NCBI RefSeq assembly: GCF_019721995.1
Contig: NZ_BLYC01000030.1
Span: 1 to 41,219 of the forward strand
Source of the DNA: Bathymodiolus japonicus methanotrophic gill symbiont
GTDB lineage: Bacteria > Pseudomonadota > Gammaproteobacteria > Methylococcales > Methylomonadaceae
DNA length: 41,219 bases
Direction: 5' to 3'
The position numbers were made by a program, and so were the translations under genes. Of this stretch, positions 7,157-39,122 are shown in pieces (within the stretch, counting starts at the first letter, position 1; the number at the start of each line of letters is the position of its first letter). The notes beneath the pieces are model-generated. The model ran no database searches. It was not told the DNA's origin and saw only the letters and a list, made by a program, of their open reading frames with translations.

Positions 7157-7912
7157 ATGGTGGAGCTAGAATCACCACCGGTTGATATTTCGGATAGTAT
7201 AAAAAAATCCAAAGAGCACGTATCGGGGAAAGAGTCATTAAGAATAGCTCTCTTGTATTTTTCTACTGTATATATCCCCCTTAGTTTTAAAGATATCAAA
7301 GAAATTGCGCAAAAGTTAATAGAAAATCCATCTATTATCAATGATATTACCTCGACAATAATAGCTCAAGATGGTCGTTGTGTTGCAAATGTACCTGGCA
7401 TAAGTTCTGATGGCGAGGATGCTGCTCTCAATCATCAAATTCAAACAAACTTTCGGATAAATACATTTTTTGCTGCAGAAGGACATATTTTACCCGCTTT
7501 ATATAAGCTTCATGATGAGTATTCAGTTACCCTGCCTATTTTAATCTCTCTATGTGAGTGCTCGGTATTAGTTCCTAAAGGCAGAGAAAATTTAACCGCT
7601 TACGCTTTGTGGTTGGGTTTTAATCGTGATTTTGGTAATGCTATTCATTTACTTTGCCCCCAATTTGAAAACATGATTCGTGTTGAATTAAAACGAGTTG
7701 GAGCTCATACACGTCCTATAACTAACAACCACATTGAGCATGAAATATGTCTAAGTAGTTTGATGGACTTACCTGAGTGTAAAGAAGTGTTTGGTGAAGA
7801 TTTGGTATTTGAAATAAAATCGATTTTTACCGACCCTTTGGGGAGTAATTTACGCAATGATGTAGCTCATGGTTTACTAGATGATAGCAGTTCCTCAAGC
7901 ATCCAACGCTGA
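7157..7912 (+). CDS. DUF4209 (HEPN-like) domain protein, truncated
   Basis: 251-residue frame whose second half matches the DUF4209 pattern: a CPQFENMIRVELKRVGAHTRP helix and a terminal NLRNDVAHGLLDD motif. R233 and H238 form an R-x4-H pair, the HEPN ribonuclease-type motif; DUF4209 proteins are usually 500-600 residues and frequent in defence islands. The first 150 residues are not recognised. The N-terminus is probably missing, as the frame begins 10 bases after an IS4 end and has no convincing ribosome site. The C-terminus is cut by a repeat that starts at 7907, so SSSSIQR includes foreign codons. Probably non-functional. Confidence 0.6.
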   Translation: MVELESPPVDISDSIKKSKEHVSGKESLRIALLYFSTVYIPLSFKDIKEIAQKLIENPSIINDITSTIIAQDGRCVANVPGISSDGEDAALNHQIQTNFRINTFFAAEGHILPALYKLHDEYSVTLPILISLCECSVLVPKGRENLTAYALWLGFNRDFGNAIHLLCPQFENMIRVELKRVGAHTRPITNNHIEHEICLSSLMDLPECKEVFGEDLVFEIKSIFTDPLGSNLRNDVAHGLLDDSSSSSIQR

Positions 7913-7953
7913 AAATCAGGGAAACGTAGCCTAAGCGAAGTGATGATTTTTAG
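7907..7953 (-). repeat. 3' terminal fragment of a type A/B GC-rich element
   Basis: Reads CGCTGAAAATCAGGGAAACG...GATTTTTAG, the 3' hairpin of the YAGGCGCGCC/CAGCG family in reverse orientation. The arms CTGAAAATCA and TGATTTTTAG pair. It ends the DUF4209 frame. Confidence 0.75.
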
Positions 7954-7982
7954 TTTGATTTTTTAACATGGGTTTTATTAAC

Positions 7983-12292: not shown

Positions 12293-12577
12293 CAGGCGCG
12301 CCATGCTACCTCACAACATTCTGGGACTCCTGTCACCAACATTCATTCGCCTACGCAGCGAATGGGAGATGCCTTGGTCGCCCTGCGGCCCTCTACAACT
12401 ACGCGCAAAACCCTGCTCCGTTAAGGCTCCCACACATGGCTTGACGGCTATTCGGAATGCAATTCTTTGCCTCCCTCGCGCGCTGCTAGCGCACTTCGGA
12501 TTGGCGAATTGCCCTGTCGCCTACCACGGACTAAAAATCATCACTTCGCTTTGGCTCCGTTTCCCTGATTTTCAGCG
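12293..12577 (+). repeat. GC-rich element type A1, full copy (285 bp)
   Basis: Begins CAGGCGCGCCATGCTACC and ends CCCTGATTTTCAGCG. It contains several GC-rich hairpins (for example gcgcgctgctagcgc) and the 3' hairpin ctaaaaatca...tgattttcag. No gene. It cuts the toxin remnant on the left and stops one base before the start codon of the lipoprotein gene on the right. This copy is about 5 bp longer and more diverged than the other A1 copies. Confidence 0.85.
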
Positions 12578-24636: not shown

Positions 24637-24690
24637 CGCTGAAAATCATGGAAACGGGGCTTAGCGAAGTGGTGATTTTTAGTCCCTGAT
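24637..24690 (-). repeat. GC-rich element type A1, 3' part (split by IS4)
   Basis: Reads CGCTGAAAATCATGG to tccctgat, the 3' hairpin end of an A1 element in reverse orientation. The remainder continues at 26227 after the IS4 element; together they make 280 bp, the same as the copy at 33818. Confidence 0.85.
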
Positions 24691-26223
24691 ACTCGATGTT
24701 CAAGTTTTTCCATCCCATTGCCATCAAACTCTTACCTTCACCCAGTAGAACAATACTTTAATGATGCTGTTGGCCCTAAGCGCCCTAAATCTCTGCCAAT
24801 CATATGTTTTCCTGATGGCAGCAGTTGAAACACATCCTTTATTAATTCACCTAACTCTTTCAGCTTATCACCAGGATCTGGAAACTCTAGCAATGACGTG
24901 ATGAACTCAAGCAGTACATCCATTTGAGACTTGCGCTGTAAGCTTCCTACGGTATACGCAGGTAGTTTGCTTTCAATGCGGGCTATTTGCTCTGGGTGAA
25001 GGAGGAGGCAATGGTCAAACAAAAGACTCAGAATCAGGCCACGGCTTGATCCCTCTTCATCTAATTGTTTGGCCTCACGCCCCCATCCTTCATAAAGCTT
25101 CCAGTCCTCAAAGAAAACCTCAATCAGCCATCTCAACGTATAGGCTTGAATAATATCTTGTGTGCGCCAAGTCAGGTCTGTCGCCACTAAATAGCGATAG
25201 TCGTTTTCACCGTCATATTTTAAGGCAATGACAAAGCGTTTTTTACTGTGAGAACTCACCTTTAATCGTGCACTGCTGACAGTCACTTTAATCTCTTTGC
25301 CGCCACGTACACGTATTATCTGATCAATGCCTTTGTTAATCGAATTAAAGTAGCTCTCGACTGACCTTATTCTACCTCTATATTCAATTTTTTGGTTTTT
25401 ACGTAATTGGCTAATCACCTGCGAGCCTCCAGATTCTTTAGCGGCTTCGTCCATAAAGGCTTTTTCACCATACAGCGCATCAGCCAGTACGCCTTTAATT
25501 TTAATCAGGCTATGCGCAACTTTAAACTCTTTTAATAAGCCTAATGCAATCTCTGTTTTGGTCGGGTAGGCACTGTCACGTTCAGGCTTAATAGGCCGAT
25601 CTTTTTTTGCTATACCGCTCTTTTTCAACCGTTTATCTTCTTTATCCCACTGCTTTAAGGCTGGATCCGGCATATAAAAGAAAAAACCGACAGGCACTGT
25701 AATGGATGAGGTAACTAGCAGCAATAATACTATCGTTTGTCCATTAACATACCCGCCGGAGCCTTTGTGTTTCTGCTTGTAAACCTTATAAATACGTTTT
25801 GTAGACTTAGATCGTGCTCGGTCTGATTCATCAAAGGCCAACACACCTTCAGTAATGCCATAACGTTTTAAAATTAAGACCACACTCACCCGTAGCAACC
25901 AGTCCCAGGGTATACTTGCTTTACGAAACACCCAGGATAATGCGGCTACTTTGCAATCTCCAAGGCTTGCTCGCTCAAACTTAGCCCAGCAAACAGAGTT
26001 CATTAGCAGTATGCACGTTAAACAAGTGCCCAACCAAGCGGCTTGAATCCGTGTCAAAGCGGCTCCGGGTTTTAGCTGATTGAGCGCATCATTTAAATCG
26101 TCAATATAGCTTTGGATAAAGGTGGCTGGGGCATTCATTAACATGGGCTTACACCGATAAAATTACAACAACCTCAGAATACCTGATTTTACCTTCTCAA
26201 TATCAAAAACTTGAACATCGAGT
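24691..26223 (-). mobile_element. IS4-family insertion sequence (1533 bp)
   Basis: Perfect 19-bp terminal inverted repeats ACTCGATGTTCAAGTTTTT. Flanked by the direct repeat gat (24688-24690 and 26224-26226); removing the element and one gat restores a continuous A1 repeat. One intact transposase gene. Confidence 0.9.
24738..26144 (-). CDS. IS4-family transposase
   Basis: Intact 468-residue DDE transposase. Seen: LAFDESDRARSKSTKRIYKVYK (first D), IKGVLADALYGEKAFMDEA (second D) and LRWLIEVFFEDWKLYEGWGREAKQLD (YREK-like E). Hydrophobic TIVLLLLVTSSITVPVGFFFYM lies between. It starts at an ATG near the right terminal repeat and ends 44 bp inside the left repeat. Partial copies of this gene occur at 29072 and 35377. 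Probably active. Confidence 0.9.
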   Translation of the reverse strand: MLMNAPATFIQSYIDDLNDALNQLKPGAALTRIQAAWLGTCLTCILLMNSVCWAKFERASLGDCKVAALSWVFRKASIPWDWLLRVSVVLILKRYGITEGVLAFDESDRARSKSTKRIYKVYKQKHKGSGGYVNGQTIVLLLLVTSSITVPVGFFFYMPDPALKQWDKEDKRLKKSGIAKKDRPIKPERDSAYPTKTEIALGLLKEFKVAHSLIKIKGVLADALYGEKAFMDEAAKESGGSQVISQLRKNQKIEYRGRIRSVESYFNSINKGIDQIIRVRGGKEIKVTVSSARLKVSSHSKKRFVIALKYDGENDYRYLVATDLTWRTQDIIQAYTLRWLIEVFFEDWKLYEGWGREAKQLDEEGSSRGLILSLLFDHCLLLHPEQIARIESKLPAYTVGSLQRKSQMDVLLEFITSLLEFPDPGDKLKELGELIKDVFQLLPSGKHMIGRDLGRLGPTASLKYCSTG

Positions 26224-26452
26224 GATAGGCGACAGGGCAATTCGCTGATTCGACGTGTGCTAGCAGCACGCGAGAGGAGCAAGAATTGCATTCCGAATAG
26301 CCGTCCAGCCAGTGAGGTAGTAATGACGAAGCGGCTTTTGTGCGTAGTCGTTGCGGACGCAGGGCGTTCAGGGCATCTCCCATCCGCTGCGTAGGTGAAC
26401 GAATTATGGCGACAGGAGTCCCGGAATTTCGTGAGGTAGCATGGCGCGCCTG
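26224..26452 (-). repeat. GC-rich element type A1, 5' part (split by IS4)
   Basis: Ends ...tagcatGGCGCGCCTG, the 5' cap in reverse orientation. It is inserted in the IS66 tnpB gene after HDPFTG. The first three bases are the gat duplicated by IS4. Confidence 0.88.
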
Positions 26453-26570: not shown

Positions 26571-27169
26571 GATACCGACCTAAGTAATTCTAATAATGGC
26601 TTTAAAGATGAAAGCTCCGTATCGGCAAGGATTTCCAGGCTGAAACCATTACTATGAGTTATTTTGATCACTGACAAACCAGCAGATAACCTTGAGCCGA
26701 TGAGCGTGTCTTCAGTCGCTGTCAGCCCCGGGCGGGATGATAGTCTCCAGAAGGCGCAGGGAAATTTGCCAATCCGAAGTGCGCGATAGCGCGCGAGGGA
26801 GGCTAAAATTTTATCCCGAATAGCCGTAGAGCCATTTGTGGTAGCCATGACTGAGCTGCTTTGTGCTCAGTCTGTGGCGGACGCAGGGCGGCTGGAGCAT
26901 CTCCTATTCGCTGCGTAGGTGAACGAATTACGGCGACAGGAGTCCCGGGATTTCGTGAGGTAGCATAGGCGCGCCTAAACAAGTTTTACTGGAACTAATT
27001 GGCTGGATTGTTTCACTGATGAGGTCGCTGAGCTGAATTGCTTTTTGTAATAACTGAAAATATGCGGCTTGATATCATGGGCTTTGCAATACTCGATCTG
27101 AGTTAAGCTACTGGCTTGCCATTGCGGTATATGGTCTTGCATAGCCGATTTATTTTGAGATGGGCTCAT
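26567..27169 (-). pseudogene. tnpA: IS66 TnpA split by a type A2 element
   Basis: N-terminal part MSPSQNKSAMQDHIPQWQAS...QLVPVKLV (27169 to 26978) and C-terminal part TEDTLIGSRLSAGLSVIKITHSNGFSLEI...LLRSVS (26716 to 26567). Deleting the 261-bp element joins them in frame as PVKLVTEDTL, corresponding to PVTLVAEDML in the intact copy at 5145. So the gene is complete apart from the insertion. Confidence 0.87.
26717..26977 (-). repeat. GC-rich element type A2 (261 bp) inside tnpA
   Basis: On the minus strand begins TAGGCGCGCCTATGC and ends GGGGCTGACAGCG. The target is CTTGTT^ACTGAAG with no duplication and no base lost. Its 3' hairpin is ctatcagcccg/cggggctgacag rather than the ctaaaaatca type. 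Confidence 0.88.
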
Positions 27170-27280
27170 TAAGGTTCTGTCGCATAAATCCCCATTCTCC
27201 GCGTTATCTGCTATCATAATTCTCATATTTCAATAAAAGGTGGATCACATGCTCATCTTCAAAGGTACTCACTTTCCAAA

Positions 27281-27575
27281 CGCTGAAAATCCTGGAAACG
27301 GAGCTTTAGCGAAGTGAAGATTTTTAGTCCGCGATAGGCGTAGGGCCGTTATTTTGTCGGAGTCTGAGCGTTAGCGAAGGTGGAGACAAAATAAAAGGCC
27401 ATCCGACACGGCGTCAAGTCATTTGGAGCCTATGTTCCGACCCCTTGTTGGGTCGGGACGAGGTGACGAGGACGAATCGGGGCCGCCGGAGGCATAAGTG
27501 GTCGCGTTAAGTTTTTGCTGCTTGCTTGGGCTGGGATGCCCAAAACAAGCTTTCGCAAAAATAGCGACTCCCCAA
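27281..27575 (-). repeat. GC-rich element type B (295 bp)
   Basis: Reverse orientation; ends in ...GCGACTCCCC at the 5' side and starts CGCTGAAAATCC at the 3' side. Contains hairpins gcttgttttgggc/gcccaagcaagc and ccgaccccttgttgggtcgg. Inserted in the IS6 transposase at ctttccaaaagatg; the A-run hides the exact boundary, so a 2-base duplication cannot be excluded. Confidence 0.87.
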
Positions 27576-27652
27576 AGATGTCATTCTTTATGCTGTTTTC
27601 TTTTATGTCAGGTATGGTGTTTCGTATCGCGACCTTGAAGAAATTATGGAAG

Positions 27653-28207
27653 TCGGGGAGTCGCTATTTTTGCGAACGCTGTCAGCCCCGGACGGGCTGA
27701 TAGTCTCCAGAAGGCGCAGGGAAATTTGCCAATCCGAAGTGCGCGATAGCGCGCGAGGGAGGCTAAAATTTTATCCCGAATAGCCGTAGAGCCATTTGAG
27801 GTAGCCATGACTGAGCTGCTTTGTGCTCAGTCTGTGGCGGACGCAGGGCGGCTGGAGCATCTCCTATTCGCTGCGTAGGTGAACGAATTACGGCGACAGG
27901 AGTCCCGGAATTTCGTGAGGTAGCATGGCGCGCCTGAGCTTGTTTTGGGCATCCCAGCCCAAGCAAGCAGCAAAAACTTAACGCGACCACTTATGCCTCC
28001 GGCGGCCCCGATTCGTCCTCGTCACCTCGTCCCGACCCAACAAGGGGTCGGAACATAGGCTCCAAATGACTTGACGCCGTGTCGGATGGCCTTTTATTTT
28101 GTCTCCACCTTCGCTAACGCTCAGACTCCGACAAAACAACGGCCCTACGGCTATCGCGGACTAAAAATCTTCACTTCGCTAAAGCTCCGTTTCCAGGATT
28201 TTCAGCG
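27653..28207 (+). repeat. GC-rich element type B (295 bp), itself interrupted by A2
   Basis: Pieces 27653-27676 and 27937-28207. It starts TCGGGGAGTCGC and ends CCAGGATTTTCAGCG. The empty IS6 site is TATGGAAG^AAAGAGG, with no duplication or loss. Confidence 0.87.
27677..27936 (-). repeat. GC-rich element type A2 (260 bp) inside type B
   Basis: Inserted into the 5' hairpin region of the type B element at GCGAA^AGCTTG, restored exactly in the other three B copies. No duplication, no loss. Almost identical to the A2 copies at 26717 and 31428. Confidence 0.9.
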
Positions 28208-30360: not shown

Positions 30361-31427
30361 GGTTAAGTTAAAGAAAAATTACAGTAACTACTCAGCGAAG
30401 CTGAGTAGCCCAATGAAATTATAAAGCAAATTCAGGTAACTTTCCCTCAAAGACCAGGGTCATTGCCTGAGTTGCACTTAGACCTTGTTTACGGCAAGTT
30501 GATAAATACCCTCTGACACGACAAAATATCTCTGCACCCTTGGTACTACGAAAGCAGCCGGATATTTTCTGTTGAACCTTGGTCATCCGAATCGAATTTT
30601 CTGCGGCATTATTGGTAAATGGCACCCAGGTATTTGTCATGAAGCGCAAGACATCCTCTTCATAATTAATCAGCCTTTCCAGTAAGTTTCTAGCTTTACT
30701 GCGTTTTATTCGCCCCCGTTTTACTTCTTTAGGCTTATCGGGTGGTGGGCATTCAATCTCCGCTTTGCCAAGTAATTCTCTGTATTGTACTTTCCATTTT
30801 TCTGCTTCTTTATGTAGTAGCATGCCACCTGCTTCATTGACGGCATCATTCATTTTTTCAAGTAGTCGTTTCATTTCAAGCGCCCACTCCTGTTTATCCT
30901 GCTCCCAGGCGCGCGTTAATTCCCTCAAATGATGTGCATTACAAAGCGAATGAGTACAGTCATATTTATAGTAGGGCTTCCAATGATCATGACATAAAAT
31001 CCCATGAAAATGGAGTAAAATCCCAATGTCATTCATTGCCTCTGTGCCACGTTTGGCATGGGGAAAGAAGTGTGTCCACTGATCATTGGACGTCCCATGT
31101 AGCCAATGGCGCTTACCATTAATATTAATGCCTGTTTCATCCGCATGAATGCACGGTGATTCGACTAAGTGTTCTTTACTGATAGTTTCAAACCCAGCCA
31201 ACTTCTCATAGGCCAGTTCATTGAAATTATAGATAGAGCCTTCACTAATCGGCATACCTAATTGATCAGCGAAATACTCCTGTATTCGGTTGTAGGGCAA
31301 TAACTGATATTGCGAAAGATAAACCACATGGGCTTTTATCCCATTACCATATTGCGCAGCCTTAGTAACCTCATCTGGAAAAGGAGCGATAAAACACTGA
31401 CCTTTTTCATTTATCAACCGTTGCGCC

Positions 31428-31687
31428 CGCTGTCAGCCCCGGACGGGCTGATAGTCTCCAGAAGGCGCAGGGAAATTTGCCAATCCGAAGTGCGCGATAG
31501 CGCGCGAGGGAGGCTAAAATTTTATCCCGAATAGCCGTAGAGCCATTTGTGGTAGCCATGACTGAGCTGCTTTGTGCTCAGTCTGTGGCGGACGCAGGGC
31601 GGCTGGAGCATCTCCTATTCGCTGCGTAGGTGAACGAATTACGGCGACAGGAGTCCCGGAATTTCGTGAGGTAGCATGGCGCGCCTG
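31428..31687 (-). repeat. GC-rich element type A2 (260 bp) inside tnpC
   Basis: On the minus strand starts CAGGCGCGCC and ends GGGGCTGACAGCG. The restored target is AATACCA^GGCGCAAC, with no duplication or loss and the reading frame restored. Confidence 0.9.
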
Positions 31688-32070
31688 TGGTATTCTGTCA
31701 CTACCCTTGAGATATCAATATCGAATACCTGGCGTGTTTCAAAGCCATCTGCCGTGTATCGCCCTTTTGGCAAGGTACGGCGATCAATGGTAATGATCTC
31801 GATTTCATCCGGGTCATCTATTTTTTGAAGTGTCGTGCCGACATGCGATTCTTGTCCGCCAGAAGGCTTATCTGATTTTTTGCGATTCCCTTTTTTACGG
31901 TTGGGATCACTTGCAGGTGGTTTACTGCTATTTTTGCTGTTCAGTGTCACTCGATTGAGTAATACCGTGATTAATAATAGAATCACTTCCAGTGCTGATT
32001 TTAGCGCAGGAGATATATCACGCTCAGTTTCAAGTAACTGTTTGGCATGACTGATTGCGGAATCAACATC

Positions 32071-32365
32071 TCGGGGAGTCGCTATTTTTGCGAAAGCTTG
32101 TTTTGGGCATCCCAGCCCAAGCAAGCAGCAAAAACTTAACGCGACCACTTATGCCTCCGGCTGCCCCGATTCGTCCTCGTCACCTCGTCCCGACCCAACA
32201 AGGGGTCGTAACATAGGCTCCAAATGACTTGACGCCGTGTCGGATGGCCTTTTATTTTGTCTCCACCTTCGCTAACGCTCAGACTCCGACAAAACAACGG
32301 CCCTACGGCTATCGCGGACTAAAAATCTTCACTTCGCTAAAGCTCCGTTTCCAGGATTTTCAGCG
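32071..32365 (+). repeat. GC-rich element type B (295 bp) inside tnpC
   Basis: Starts TCGGGGAGTCGC and ends CCAGGATTTTCAGCG. The restored target is TCAACATC^GATGAAGTC, again without duplication or loss. Opposite orientation to the A2 copy in the same gene. Confidence 0.9.
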
Positions 32366-32644
32366 GATGAAGTCTATTTTCAAAGGGTAACCTGTATTGC
32401 TTTAAGGACAGGCTTATTATCTCATGGGTTTTAAATCCCGAATTTTCCTTGTTTTAAGCGATTGTAAGGCGAATAAAAAAGCTCTTCGAGGTCGTAGATG
32501 TTTAAGGGGACATTTTGTGATGACTATAGCGATAGAAGCAATAAAGCGTGGATTAATCGACTGTTGGGCAGTTCACTAAAAATCACAAAAACCAGGCTAA
32601 AACCCTGTCAAGAACTTTTTTAATTATTTACGCTGAGTAGTTAC

Positions 32645-32692
32645 AAATTACAATTGTTAAGTTTAGTACGGTAAAGAAAAATTACAATTGTC
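32645..32692. repeat. Tandem near-repeat next to the ISBst12 insertion
   Basis: aaagaaaaattacaattgt occurs at 32673-32691; without the IS the same string would also span the insertion site (30371-30383 joined to 32653). The target of the IS was therefore a short duplication at the 3' end of the secreted-protein gene. Confidence 0.6.
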
Positions 32693-33061
32693 AGTTTGGC
32701 TACGTTTAGAAAGGAACGTTTTATTATTTCCAGATTTCAAATAATGGAATCCCACAACAGTCCATAAGGATTGACCTGTATTATCTCTATGGGCTGCCCC
32801 GTTATTATTCCATAAATATTCCCATCCAGTGTCAAGCTGATGTCTCATCTTTCCATGCTTATAGTGCCTGCTAAAAACCCTCGACAATCTCTTCTCCGAG
32901 CTCATGAATGTTATTGACTCATTTCCATAATCAGCTCCTCCCGGCGGAAAGCAATTTGCTCTACTAAACTGCCACAACTTAGCACTAGAAACACTACTAA
33001 ATGACATTAAACCTACAGTTAACACGATAGGCAGTGAACGGAACAATTTTGATTTTTTCAT
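32663..33061 (-). CDS. Small secreted protein of unknown function
   Basis: 132 residues. Signal peptide KLFRSLPIVLTVGLMSFSSVSSA is followed by KLWQFSRANCFPPGGADYGNES. The mature protein is rich in aromatic residues, histidine and arginine (FSRHYKHGKMRHQLDTGWEYLW) and has two cysteines, which may form a disulfide. No family recognised. The C-terminus (DNCNFSLPY) lies in the duplicated 3' segment. No close neighbours in the same direction; the upstream gene is a Sel1 fragment. Confidence 0.7.
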   Translation of the reverse strand: MKKSKLFRSLPIVLTVGLMSFSSVSSAKLWQFSRANCFPPGGADYGNESITFMSSEKRLSRVFSRHYKHGKMRHQLDTGWEYLWNNNGAAHRDNTGQSLWTVVGFHYLKSGNNKTFLSKRSQTDNCNFSLPY

Positions 33062-33166
33062 TTTAATTTACCATTAAACTAAGAATCTGTCTCATCAGTA
33101 TCAGGAGATAATCCCGGATAGACGCTTCTCAGCGTTTCGACTTGGTTAGGATGTTAATACCATAGG

Positions 33167-33330
33167 CTACAGTCCATTTTCTACCCTTACCAAATTTTTT
33201 TGCGCGCCAGGATGCCCTTGTTCTGCCGCCATCCTGTACCACTTAACGGCTTCTTTGTCGTCCGGATCAACACCTTTACCATGTTCGTACATCATTCCTA
33301 ATATAAATTGTGCACCCGCACGCCGCAGAA
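33167..33330 (-). pseudogene. Sel1-repeat protein, C-terminal fragment
   Basis: The minus strand reads AGAQFILGMMYEHGKGVDPDDKEAVKWYRMAAEQGHPGAQKNL followed by VRVENGL and a stop, one and a third canonical Sel1 repeats. No start is visible; the frame loses coherence near 33330. Remnant of a larger Sel1-like repeat protein. Confidence 0.65.
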
Positions 33331-33364
33331 TTTGCAAAATGCGCCCTGTGGCGATATATAGCCG

Positions 33365-33499
33365 TTAAATGAATAGTGTTTCTTGTGCTCTTGAATATAC
33401 TTGTTCACCACTAGGATTACAGAGACTTTCGTCCATATATGCCCAGATTACGTTTATTGAAATAATATCAACTTTGCCCACTACCCATTGTGTTAATTG
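33365..33499 (-). pseudogene. C-terminal fragment of a small protein, cut by IS6
   Basis: Reads LTQWVVGKVDIISINVIWAYMDESLCNPSGEQVYSRAQETLFI and a stop. The pattern W-x2-GKVD...LCNPSG faintly recalls Rap1a/Tai immunity proteins, but the fragment is too short for assignment. The 5' part is replaced by the IS6 left end at 33500. Confidence 0.3.
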
Positions 33500-33575
33500 G
33501 GTTCTGTCGCATAAATCCCCATTCTCCGCGTTATCTGCTATCATAATTCTCATATTTCAATAAAAGGTGGATCAC

Positions 33576-34448
33576 ATGCTCATCTTCAAAGGTACTCACT
33601 TTCCAAAAGATGTCATTCTTTATGCTGTTTTCTTTTATGTCAGGTATGGTGTTTCGTATCGCGACCTTGAAGAAATTATGGAAGAAAGAGGTGTTGAAGT
33701 GGATCATGCTACGCTCAACCGTTGGGTTATCCGTTATTCTCCTGCCATTGCTGTAAAAGCTAAATCTCAGAAACGAGAAACCAATAAATCGTGGCGCATG
33801 GATGAAACGTATATCAACAGGCGCGCCATGCTACCTCACGAAATTCCGGGACTCCTGTCGCCATAATTCGTTCACCTACGCAGCGGATGGGAGATGCCCT
33901 GAACGCCCTGCGTCCGCAACGACTACGCACAAAAGCCGCTTCGTCATTACTACCTCACTCGCTGGACGGCTATTCGGAATGCAATTCTTGCTCCTCTAGC
34001 GTGCTGCTAGCACACGTCGAATCAGCGAATTGCCCTGTCGCCTATCAGGGACTAAAAATCACCACTTCGCTAAGCTCCGTTTCCATGATTTTCAGCGGCT
34101 GCAACAGCCTTTTTCAAACAAACGATTAACAATAATGGCTTTCCTGATAAGGTCGTTATGGATAAAAGTGGCGCTAACTATGCAGGATTAGCCAATATTA
34201 ACCTCTTGTTAATCCTTGCTGGGTTTGCCACTATGATCGACATATTACAGGTTAAATATTTGAATAACATCATCGAACAGGATCATCGATTTATCAAAAA
34301 AATAACAAAACCGATGATGGGCTTTAAAGCGTTTCACTCCGCTCAAGCAACCATTGATGGAATTGAAACAGCACATATGATCCGAAAGGGACAATTGTCT
34401 GAGGAAAATATTCCTGCTTATAAGCAGTTTATGGCTTTAGCAGGATAG
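33576..34448 (+). pseudogene. IS6 transposase with ~91 bp replaced by an A1 element
   Basis: N-terminal part MLIFKGTHFPKDVILYAVFF...SWRMDETYI and C-terminal part from about AATAFFKQTINNNGFPDKVVMDKSGANYAG to FMALAG. Compared with the copy at 28318, about 91 bp between tatatcaa and gctgcaac are missing where the 280-bp element sits. The start ATG follows aaaaggtgg. Confidence 0.87.
33818..34097 (+). repeat. GC-rich element type A1 (280 bp)
   Basis: Starts CAGGCGCGCCATGCTACC and ends CATGATTTTCAGCG. Nearly identical to the copies at 24637/26452 and 37633. The only copy in the window where target DNA is clearly deleted beside it. Confidence 0.9.
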
Positions 34449-34501
34449 TTATGCCTGAAGACCAGGAGGTCTGCGCTTTTGATAATTATTGCGACAGAAC
34501 C

Positions 34502-34584
34502 CGTCGAATCAGCGAATTGCCCTGTCGCCTATCAGGGACTAAAAATCACCACTTCGCTAAGCTACTTTTCCATGATTTTCAGCG
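34502..34584 (+). repeat. GC-rich element type A1, 3' fragment
   Basis: Starts inside the element (cgtcgaatcagcg) directly at an IS6 end and runs to ttttcagcg. The 5' two thirds are missing. Confidence 0.82.
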
Positions 34585-34705
34585 AAAGAATGACATCTTT
34601 TTGAAAGTGAGTGCCTTTGAAGCTGAGCATGTGATCCACCTTTTATTGAAATTGATAATTATGATAGCAGATAACGTCGGGAAGGGGGATTTATGCGACA
34701 GAACC
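34585..34705 (-). mobile_element. IS6-family 5' fragment
   Basis: Reverse-oriented left end of an IS6: terminal repeat gcgacagaacc at the right, leader, ATG and the first few codons, ending at gaatgacatc. It cuts the ParA-like gene. Confidence 0.8.
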
Positions 34706-35276: not shown

Positions 35277-35376
35277 CAGGCGCGCCATGCTACCTCACGA
35301 AATTCCGGGACTCCTGTCGCCTATCAGGGGCTAAAAATCACCACTTCGCTAAGCTCCGTTTCCATGATTTTCAGCG
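35277..35376 (+). repeat. GC-rich element type A1, internally deleted (100 bp)
   Basis: Has both termini (CAGGCGCGCC, TTTTCAGCG) but lacks about 180 bp between two direct copies of CCTGTCGCC, one of which remains. Confidence 0.88.
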
Positions 35377-36472: not shown

Positions 36473-36767
36473 ACGGGGAGTCGCTATTTTTGCGAAAGCT
36501 TGTTTTGGGCATCCCAGCCCAAGCAAGCAGCAAAAACTTAACGCGACCACTTATGCCTCCGGCGGCCCCCATTCGTCCTCGTCACCTCGTCCCGACCCAA
36601 CAAGGGGTCGGAACATAGGCTCCAAATGACTTGACGCCGTGTCGGATGGCCTTTTATTTTGTCTCCACCTTCGCTAACGCTCAGACTCCGACAAAACAAC
36701 GGCCCTACGGCTATCGCGGACTAAAAATCATCACTTCGCTTAGGCTACGTTTCCCTGATTTTCAGCG
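36473..36767 (+). repeat. GC-rich element type B (295 bp)
   Basis: Starts acGGGGAGTCGC and ends CCCTGATTTTCAGCG. Its last 50 bases carry the A1-like variant (atcatcacttcgcttaggctacg), unlike the other three B copies, suggesting exchange between subtypes. A lone IS6-type terminal repeat (ggttctgtcgca, 36434) lies just upstream. Confidence 0.87.
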
Positions 36768-37632: not shown

Positions 37633-37909
37633 CAGGCGCGCCATGCTACCTCACGAAATTCCGGGACTCCTGTCGCCATAATTCGTTCACCTACGCAGCG
37701 GATGGGAGATGCCCTGAACGCCCTGCGTCCGCAACGACTACGCACAAAAGCCGCTTCGTCATTACTACCTCACTGGCTGGACGGCTATTCGGAATGCAAT
37801 TCTTGCTCCTCTAGCGTGCTGCTAGCACACGTCGAATCAGCAAATTGCCCTGTCGCCTATCAGGGACTAAAAATCACCACTTCGCTAAGCTACGTTTCCA
37901 TGATTTTCA
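37633..37909 (+). repeat. GC-rich element type A1, last few bases missing
   Basis: Starts CAGGCGCGCC and is nearly identical to the copy at 33818, but ends at tgattttca and lacks the final GCG. The stop codon of the VapE gene is 8 bp away, so the helicase's 3' flank has been replaced. Confidence 0.88.
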
Positions 37910-37916
37910 TCTGACT

Positions 37917-39122
37917 CTAATGGGTTGAGCTATCAGCTTTACTTAAAGGCGGCATAAAATAAGTCCTCCTATTGTGCTTCACATTAAGACCCGTTAACAC
38001 TTTTTTTACAGCCATCTGGTTCGATCTGTTATTTATTATATTCTTAGGTAACTCATTTATTATCTCGGAGCTAGTCATTTTTATTGTTCTATTGCTAAGT
38101 GCCTCACCAGTTTTGTCAGCAGTAAACTCAAACACCTCCAAAACTATATCTTTCAATGACCTATTGTCAGGATAGCCTAAGATTTCCGCACGTAGAGCCT
38201 CTTCTTCGGGCGTAAGCCACCATTGCCCACCATGTGTATAGGCATGCCAGATAAACGCCCACAAGTCTGTATAATCAAAATTAGAAACGCGTGGATAATC
38301 TAACCGACCTTTAGCAATAACGGGTAGAAGCCTTCTATCCCACCTAGCACCTTTGGGTGGATATTCTCCCTCAACAGAAGTCATACACGATACATGCCTA
38401 CGTATGACTGTAGGTTTCCTAGCGTACGTTAATCTTATTTCATCCACCTCTTTTGCCAAAAATCCTTTTAACTCGGGCAGCCCTTTCTTCTTCAACGCAG
38501 GATCTAGGCCTGCAAGTTCAGGTATCCAACACCTAATAATATTAAGCATAGAATCCCGGTCTTTTGTATCTAGGCGAACAGAGTCTTTTATGTATTTATG
38601 AAGTTCCGCAGGGAGTAGGTATTTAATAAATGAAGTTTTATGGAGTCCTTGATCTCCACCTAGCACCAGCACACATTCATATTTGGGGATAGCATCTGGA
38701 TGCTTACCTTCATGCTTTGCCATATCAGCGGCTGCACAGCATTGTATTAGCCATCTATACATGGCGACCTTAACCCATTCCTTATCTTCCACTGGCAAGT
38801 TATCTACAAGTTCATGGACTGGGTTATTTGTCTTGGTGCGTGTAATGCCTGTAAGCCAATCTCTAACGGGATTAATAACATTGCTTTCAATGATAGATCC
38901 TAACTGTTCATCAACAATCGTCCTGCTAAGCTTGTAGTTCCTGCAAATAACTTTGGTGTACGCTATCAAGTCTTTCAGTTCATTTCCTTCTACGCCTGAA
39001 GAGCCTTTTATTACTGGCGCGTTTGAAATTTCATTATAACTGGCATCCACGCCAAAGCGTTTCATCAGTCCTTCAAGTTCTCCACGTTCCCCGGGGTGCA
39101 ACAGGGGTGTTTTTTTGTCCAT
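37917..39122 (-). CDS. VirE/VapE-type helicase (plasmid or phage replication)
   Basis: 401 residues matching the virulence-associated E (VirE, PF05272) family of superfamily 3-like helicases, usually found with primases on phages, satellites and plasmids. Seen: CVLVLGGDQGLHKTSFIKYLLP (Walker A GGDQGLHKTS, 155-164), WIPELAGLDPALKKKGLPELKGFLAKEVDEIRLTYARKP (Walker B-like region and the conserved DxxRxPYxR-type segment) and RRHVSCMTSVEGEYPPKGARWDRRLLPVI (sensor and arginine finger). The primase half typical of larger homologues is absent; a separate fragment with replication-protein character lies at 39446. Start ATG follows an agaga leader. Likely replication gene of the element in which the partition module sits. 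Confidence 0.8.
   Translation of the reverse strand: MDKKTPLLHPGERGELEGLMKRFGVDASYNEISNAPVIKGSSGVEGNELKDLIAYTKVICRNYKLSRTIVDEQLGSIIESNVINPVRDWLTGITRTKTNNPVHELVDNLPVEDKEWVKVAMYRWLIQCCAAADMAKHEGKHPDAIPKYECVLVLGGDQGLHKTSFIKYLLPAELHKYIKDSVRLDTKDRDSMLNIIRCWIPELAGLDPALKKKGLPELKGFLAKEVDEIRLTYARKPTVIRRHVSCMTSVEGEYPPKGARWDRRLLPVIAKGRLDYPRVSNFDYTDLWAFIWHAYTHGGQWWLTPEEEALRAEILGYPDNRSLKDIVLEVFEFTADKTGEALSNRTIKMTSSEIINELPKNIINNRSNQMAVKKVLTGLNVKHNRRTYFMPPLSKADSSTH

Follow-up and report, generated by a model that had tools for sequence, protein, structure and literature searches.

Gene-less elements in the window

The window, i.e. the whole stretch of DNA analysed here (contig C30, 41,219 bases, of a genome of 4.97 Mb in 109 contigs), carries copies of short mobile elements without genes. 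Three full-length subtypes were distinguished, namely A1 (280 bp), A2 (260 bp) and B (295 bp). All copies listed in an earlier note on this DNA were present. The copies and fragments are:

7907..7954, − strand: 3′-end (hairpin) fragment
12293..12577, + strand: diverged A1-like element
24637..26452, − strand: A1 element split by an independent DDE insertion sequence (gene 24738–26144, −)
26717..26977, − strand: A2-like element whose 5′ end differs slightly (TAGGCGCGCCTATG)
27281..27575, − strand: full B element within a copy of an IS240/IS6-type insertion sequence
27653..28207, + strand: B element split by A2 (at 27677–27936)
27677..27936, − strand: A2 element, 260 bp, nested in B
31428..31687, − strand: A2 element adjoining an IS66 transposase gene (30419–31417)
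32071..32365, + strand: full B element, 295 bp, adjoining an IS66-type transposase gene region; empty site found
33818..34097, + strand: A1 element, 280 bp
34496..34584, + strand: 3′-end fragment of A1
35277..35376, + strand: A-type deletion derivative of 100 bp, composed of 5′ and 3′ parts
36473..36767, + strand: full B element
37633..37912, + strand: A1 element with a mutated 3′ end

The copy previously given as 24637/26452 is a single A1 element interrupted by the DDE transposon, with a TGATA duplication recognised by eye. Other features of the window are a type II hammerhead ribozyme match near the element cluster (33081–33142, −; 37.6 bits, Rfam gathering score 37), an AlwI restriction endonuclease match across almost the whole profile (299–2005, +) and a protein carrying a VapE-like domain (37917–39122, −).

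As had been described, the ends of the elements are asymmetric and the 3′ end is a hairpin followed by CAGCG. The left-end hairpins take several forms, mostly CGCTG...TAG. A1 and A2 are about 82% identical across 242 bases. The length of exactly 295 bp reported for B was correct and is composed of 293 bp and a variable 5′ dinucleotide, which was TC in 68, TT in 21, GC in 16, AC in 6 and another pair in 4 of 115 copies. These two bases are element-borne and not target-derived, as copies sharing an internal haplotype differ in them. The sizes of the three subtypes proposed earlier stood, whereas the list itself was incomplete: an additional B-like class with a different 3′ hairpin (5 loci read) and solitary hairpins of 28–49 bp also exist.

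Copy number and age of the elements

Genome-wide, AGGCGCGCC occurred 864 times compared with 2 occurrences of a reversed-pattern control, indicating that the abundance of the element is not due to chance. In a sample of 1,170,059 bases of the same genome, we found 331 paired 5′ ends, 272 of them at a full length (B 115, A2 87, A1 70). Pieces of the element made up 94,155 bases of this sample (8.0%). Because some stretches had been picked for holding hits, density and coverage were taken from contigs C2 (complete) and C3 (310,000 of 311,776 bases). Here, 47,560 of 635,804 bases (7.5%) are element-derived and 135 full copies are present, a density that implies about 1,050 full copies when extrapolated to the genome. 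More than half of the A2 copies (52 of 87) are identical to the consensus, and the median number of differences from the consensus is 2 for A1 and 3 for B. Judged from the identical A2 copies, the burst looks recent. In mussel methanotroph symbionts, insertion sequences account for more than 20% of each genome and most transposase genes are disrupted, according to PMC8788690. The elements described here add a high-copy mobile family, which occupies 7–9% of the sampled contigs and lies inside many insertion sequences and other frames.

Insertion is exact

To compare occupied with empty sites, the flanks of 271 copies were joined and used as queries. An empty site spanning the junction with at least 90% identity was present in the sampled DNA of the same genome for 139 queries. 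No gap was found within five bases of the junction in 134 of these 139 sites, and the remaining five contain gaps of 1–6 bases. A smaller first sample had provided 63 spanning matches from up to 117 queries, a few of them of low identity. Insertion leads neither to duplication nor to loss at the target, which bears out what had been read from individual junctions in the window. The empty sites within this genome thus show no target duplication, in agreement with the earlier decision to set aside ordinary DDE transposition.

Junctions were located in a stop-free frame of at least 450 nt in 120 of 247 cases compared with 828 of 1235 random positions. Thus, open frames are hit below chance or such hits are lost.

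A single base defines the target

The earlier note had seen no target consensus. Alignment of the flanks revealed one: 267 of 272 full copies carry G at position +4 downstream of the 3′ end, and in four of the five deviating copies there is a G at +3. C occupies +1 in 3% of the copies and G occupies +5 in 5%, and the 5′ flank displays no strong consensus. Written for the other strand, the rule reads DCNNH^CGCTG with insertion three bases 3′ of the C (CNNN^). HUH transposition had been set aside on the ground that it needs a target motif; such a motif exists, namely a single C at −4 relative to the insertion on the folded strand.

The rule extends beyond this genome. It was followed at 23 of 25 ends in relatives and at 15 of 17 further loci, the other two of which have no recognisable CAGCG end; one of these 15 loci is also among the order-wide rows and several derive from one genus. 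All 32 order-wide rows complied, a set drawn from genomes, plasmids and IMG/VR that includes the own genome, two duplicate rows and five rows that share a single source, either IMG/VR-derived or close to the own genome. Among 28 distant members retrieved with a covariance model, of which the target flank is not a part, C was present at −4 in all 19 with a CGCTG-like start (one of these belongs to the same order, and in two the start lies 7 and 10 bases away from that of the model), the nine without such a start being left unscored. These nine (L303, L304, L307, L309, L310, L312, L314, L318 and L326), several of which carry GCGACGCCCC after the first hairpin, possibly represent a second left-end class.

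The solitary hairpin candidates (n = 7) had C at −4 in all cases and G at +4 in five. Of the two without this G, L149 resembles what is left after a deletion, and L130 may not belong to the family.

One strand of the element folds into a conserved structure

Comparison of 33 diverse B-like sequences revealed that the 5′-CGCTG...CCNN-3′ strand folds better than its complement (alignment score −194 vs −172). On this strand, 277 cells contain G.U and 32 contain A.C, whereas each combination occurs in 71 cells on the opposite strand. Thirty aligned sequences share a structure of 61 pairs, in which 95.7% of the cells are paired compared with 86.5% after shuffling and 39.9–49.0% after sliding; a shift by one to three columns abolishes the structure. 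Two-sided changes were found at 25 of the 61 pairs. The covariation score was reached by none and the number of pair types by one of 500 shuffles, which do not preserve the relatedness of the sequences. The first hairpin is missing from the 61 pairs because its short variants align badly.

Moreover, pairing between the far end of the element and an internal CGGGG, which directly precedes the last hairpins on their 5′ side, is formed in 95.3% of the cells, with no two-sided changes among the aligned sequences. The variable B dinucleotide and its internal partner showed no covariation; the partner is the same in almost all of the 115 copies.

For the first half of the element, a covariance model was trained on 25 B-like sequences (a single one from this genome), using the structure without the first hairpin; its E-values are rough. 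In the window it gave 14 matches, strong ones for B, A1 and the fragments and weak ones for the three A2 copies (E about 0.001). With Rfam 15, no family reached its gathering score on the elements of the window, and none was found up to an E-value of 1 over the elements at 31400–34700 or at 12 distant loci. The analysis of the aligned pairs shows that the 5′-CGCTG...CCNN-3′ strand has a conserved, covarying structure.

Orientation follows the GC skew

On contigs C1, C2, C3 and C5, 207 of 251 full copies are oriented the same way relative to the GC skew. In C1 and C2, which have a positive skew, 67 and 77 copies lie on the − strand and 22 on the + strand, plus nine further + copies in C2. In C3 and C5 (negative skew), 63 copies lie on the + strand and 13 on the − strand. 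Small samples of C10, C14 and C16 displayed the same sense of orientation in 10 of 15 cases. A DDE transposon served as control (43 matches to a probe from the insertion sequence at 24738–26144 of the window); on the same four contigs, 21 of 43 copies had the same sense, i.e. there was no strand bias. The association is weaker when calculated by 20-kb stretch than by contig (p 3e-5 for all subtypes together, p 0.10 for A2 taken separately). On the usual reading of GC skew, the 5′-CGCTG... strand would be located on the lagging-strand template.

Distribution in other bacteria

A-like DNA was detected in 16 of 61 genomes (3 of 30 genera). B-like DNA, often partial, was present in 111 of 201 genomes and 31 of 48 genera of the order, which was taken as Methylococcales. 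The covariance model matched 31 of 369 genomes (25 of 272 genera) drawn from the class, taken as Gammaproteobacteria and including the own order (both ranks were deduced from the plasmid matches with names); at the threshold of E 0.001 per genome, less than one chance match is expected across the 369. In G540, G235, G538 and G562 many model matches lie at contig ends, so that copy numbers in draft genomes are probably underestimated.

The elements also occur on plasmids. Four Methylococcales records contain them, with a 90% identical A1 copy on the Methyloprofundus plasmid pINp10, and two Legionella antarctica records contain three copies. A solitary hairpin has an exact match in the Bathymodiolus platifrons methanotrophic symbiont. 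This match and the pINp10 copy suggest that the genome analysed here probably belongs to Methyloprofundus, a genus of mussel symbionts. In IMG/VR, six stretches from three contigs carried a B start and none an A start. Phage sequences searched with A1 and E. coli genomes searched with one distant member gave no match.

The earlier note did not recognise the family, and no named repeat family was matched in Rfam or in the titles and opening lines of abstracts that were found; none of these describes such elements. For comparison we used PMC6006769, PMC8788690, PMC5896051, PMC3116915, PMC4853749, PMC9755519 and PMC3733652.

Search for the mobilising enzyme

A longer autonomous version with a gene between the same ends had been proposed. 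It was not found in the 1.17 Mb sampled. The distance between paired ends exceeds 330 bp in 39 of 331 cases, and in 18 of these it is also greater than 2,000 bp. Comparison of the 21 closer pairs with A1, A2 and B identified several nests, others being adjacent copies or end motifs that had been paired computationally; locus L081 is an A1 element with an insert of about 320 bp. On visual inspection, frames of at least 100 aa in all 39 wide pairs resemble those of host genes or DDE transposases. A profile scan covered ten proteins of the window set, one of them that of L164.

Y1 transposases show no enrichment with the element: they were detected in 24 of the 31 genomes that carry it and in 217 of the 338 that do not (Fisher p 0.17), leaving seven positives in which none was found. 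Reverse transcriptases (RVT_1) are encoded by 21 of 31 positive and 116 of 338 negative genomes (p 0.0004). Four positives (G235, G242, G355 and G540) revealed neither gene; as draft assemblies can miss genes, such absences weaken both candidates but do not exclude them.

The Y1 genes of the own genome appear to be mainly decayed IS200-type copies with other ends, one of which retains a nearly full domain with a stop near its start. The sole gene judged intact is of the RAYT type (L164 1201–1869, −, contig C5). This gene is flanked by inverted AAAGGGGACG..TACCCTTT-like hairpins, which did not recur in the 1.17 Mb sample. In the genus, 28 Y1 loci were examined of more than 150 listed matches and, apart from L186 and L204, showed no ends in common with the elements. 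L186, which looked like a tnpA within a B-like element, was rejected because a second copy showed that an independent insertion sequence had landed there. At L204 (1329–1460, G016), a RAYT-like gene with an in-frame stop is preceded by a B start of 35 bases, some 95 bases upstream of it. L192 (1320–1848, G003) and L205 (1323–1839, G017) each contain a Y1 gene of 171–175 aa, whose flanking hairpins have CGCTGGCTTCAGCC/GGCTGAAGCCAGCG-like arms and ends resembling the solitary hairpins of the family, with arms CGCTGG/CCAGCG or similar. The B start at L204 and the hairpins at L192 and L205 are leads to a Y1 enzyme. An intact member of the 171–175 aa class was not found in the own genome.

Two genes are probably neighbours by coincidence: a TnpB-like gene adjoining the Methylobacter plasmid copy and an IS91 gene beside one of the Legionella antarctica copies. 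At L306 (G541), an element directly adjoins a group II intron reverse transcriptase gene together with an intron match, which lies outside the element. No driver enzyme was found among the candidates searched.

How the elements may move

The elements constitute a large family of gene-less mobile elements, unnamed in the searches made, that insert exactly beside a C, are biased in the direction of replication and have a conserved fold. We give roughly even chances to single-strand, HUH-like transposition with the enzyme acting in trans. According to this model the element would move as the folded single strand 5′-CGCTG...CCNN-3′, the complement of the strand first written, and the chemistry of HUH transposases would be most similar to the observed behaviour. 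A G that directly precedes the first hairpin on its 5′ side and is invariant in the sequences compared is a candidate for a one-base guide that could recognise the target C. Several observations argue against HUH-like movement. No driver was found among the candidates searched, Y1 transposases do not follow the element, and the only Y1 gene of the own genome judged intact has other flanking hairpins. IS200/IS605 elements have a target of four bases, whereas one is fixed here, and the fold along most of the element exceeds the needs of end hairpins. Furthermore, two-sided changes are lacking in the far-end pairing, and the orientation association weakens when calculated by 20-kb stretch.

A tentative, clearly less probable proposal gives the fold a greater part. 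The folded strand of 260–310 nt, as DNA or RNA, might itself be the moving machine or guide, and the elements would then represent an unnamed kind, present in many gammaproteobacterial groups, that inserts at a single C and has no dedicated transposase of a known family.

An RNA route seems rather unlikely. Here, a ribozyme- or guide-like transcript would be inserted by reverse splicing or target-primed reverse transcription, with a reverse transcriptase provided in trans. Group II introns are known for exact insertion and a replication-strand bias, and both properties are found in the elements together with a covarying structure and G.U pairs on one strand. The enrichment of reverse transcriptase genes in element-positive genomes points in the same direction but may merely reflect genomes rich in mobile DNA. 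Moreover, no RVT_1 match was found in 10 of the 31 positives, among them G235, G540 and the single-contig genome G246, in which 9 element matches were scored; the elements contain no intron match, and the target is one base and not an exon-binding sequence.

It is quite unlikely that a tyrosine recombinase acts on the folded single strand, in the way an integron integrase acts on attC, using loose sites and a single strand exchange that is resolved by replication. Integron integrases have relaxed secondary sites, which the exact insertion and the one-base rule resemble, and the conserved structure fits a folded substrate. However, no attC boxes were noticed by eye, and attC sites are far shorter than the structure of the element.

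We regard it as distinctly improbable that the elements are large relatives of REP/REPIN sequences mobilised by RAYT transposases. They have in common many hairpins, GTAG motifs adjoining hairpins, solitary hairpins, a high copy number and single-strand action, as described for these systems in PMC6006769 and PMC3116915. The B start near the RAYT-like gene of G016 and the Y1 class of G003 and G017 with its flanking hairpins are further points in favour. On the other hand, the other RAYT flanks examined lacked ends of the element family, the element of G246 sits in what appears to be the RAYT's own REP, the own genome yielded no intact gene of the 171–175 aa class and Y1 was not found in seven of the 31 positives.

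Rolling-circle transposition by an IS91/Helitron-like Y2 HUH enzyme is very improbable. It would start at the hairpin end and terminate at the variable end, which agrees with one precise and one variable end without duplication, and one Legionella antarctica copy abuts a gene annotated as IS91-family transposase. On the other hand, the other two copies there abut different genes, the target is not a fixed tetranucleotide, and PF04986 (IS91-type) had no match in the own genome, although the control was equally silent.

Irrespective of the mechanism, one-base-target insertion tied to the direction of replication and to a covarying structure, be it a DNA substrate or an RNA, provides a clean testable case. 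The enzyme, once identified, could turn out to be a new recombinase or a single-strand transposase that is very permissive.

Comparison with known systems

The element was assigned to none of the known classes because it deviates from IS200/IS605 in target length, from DDE MITEs in duplication and from group II introns in the Rfam core, and because a tie to RAYT is unproven. Like DDE MITEs, it is short, gene-less and present in many copies; unlike these, it has differing 5′ and 3′ ends and generates no target duplication. The Coxiella QMITEs and the Thiomargarita MITEs, in contrast, are described with direct repeats. With ORF-less group II introns the element has in common exact insertion, a preference for one replication strand and a structured single strand, but there is no Rfam intron match and no exon-binding target was seen. 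HEARO or omega RNA elements are mobile structured non-coding elements of similar size; the Rfam searches gave no HEARO match.

REP, BIME and REPIN sequences with their RAYT enzymes are likewise folded, non-autonomous and of high copy number, and rely on single-strand chemistry. The element differs from REP in being about ten times longer, in its CGCTG ends and in having no clear link to a RAYT gene, and from REP/BIME/REPIN in that about half of its insertions (120 of 247) lie in open frames.

IS200/IS605 elements recognise a tetra- or pentanucleotide, whereas only the C at −4 is fixed for the element described here, with weakly biased neighbours. In addition, the element is structured over most of its length, and no Y1 gene was found between such ends. 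Shared with IS200/IS605 and their gene-less derivatives are the lack of a duplication, the end hairpins, the orientation relative to replication and a guide-like pairing of the right end. In IS200/IS605, guide and cleavage site pair with each other, as described in PMC6006769, and the pairing of the far end of the element with the internal CGGGG can be likened to this interaction.
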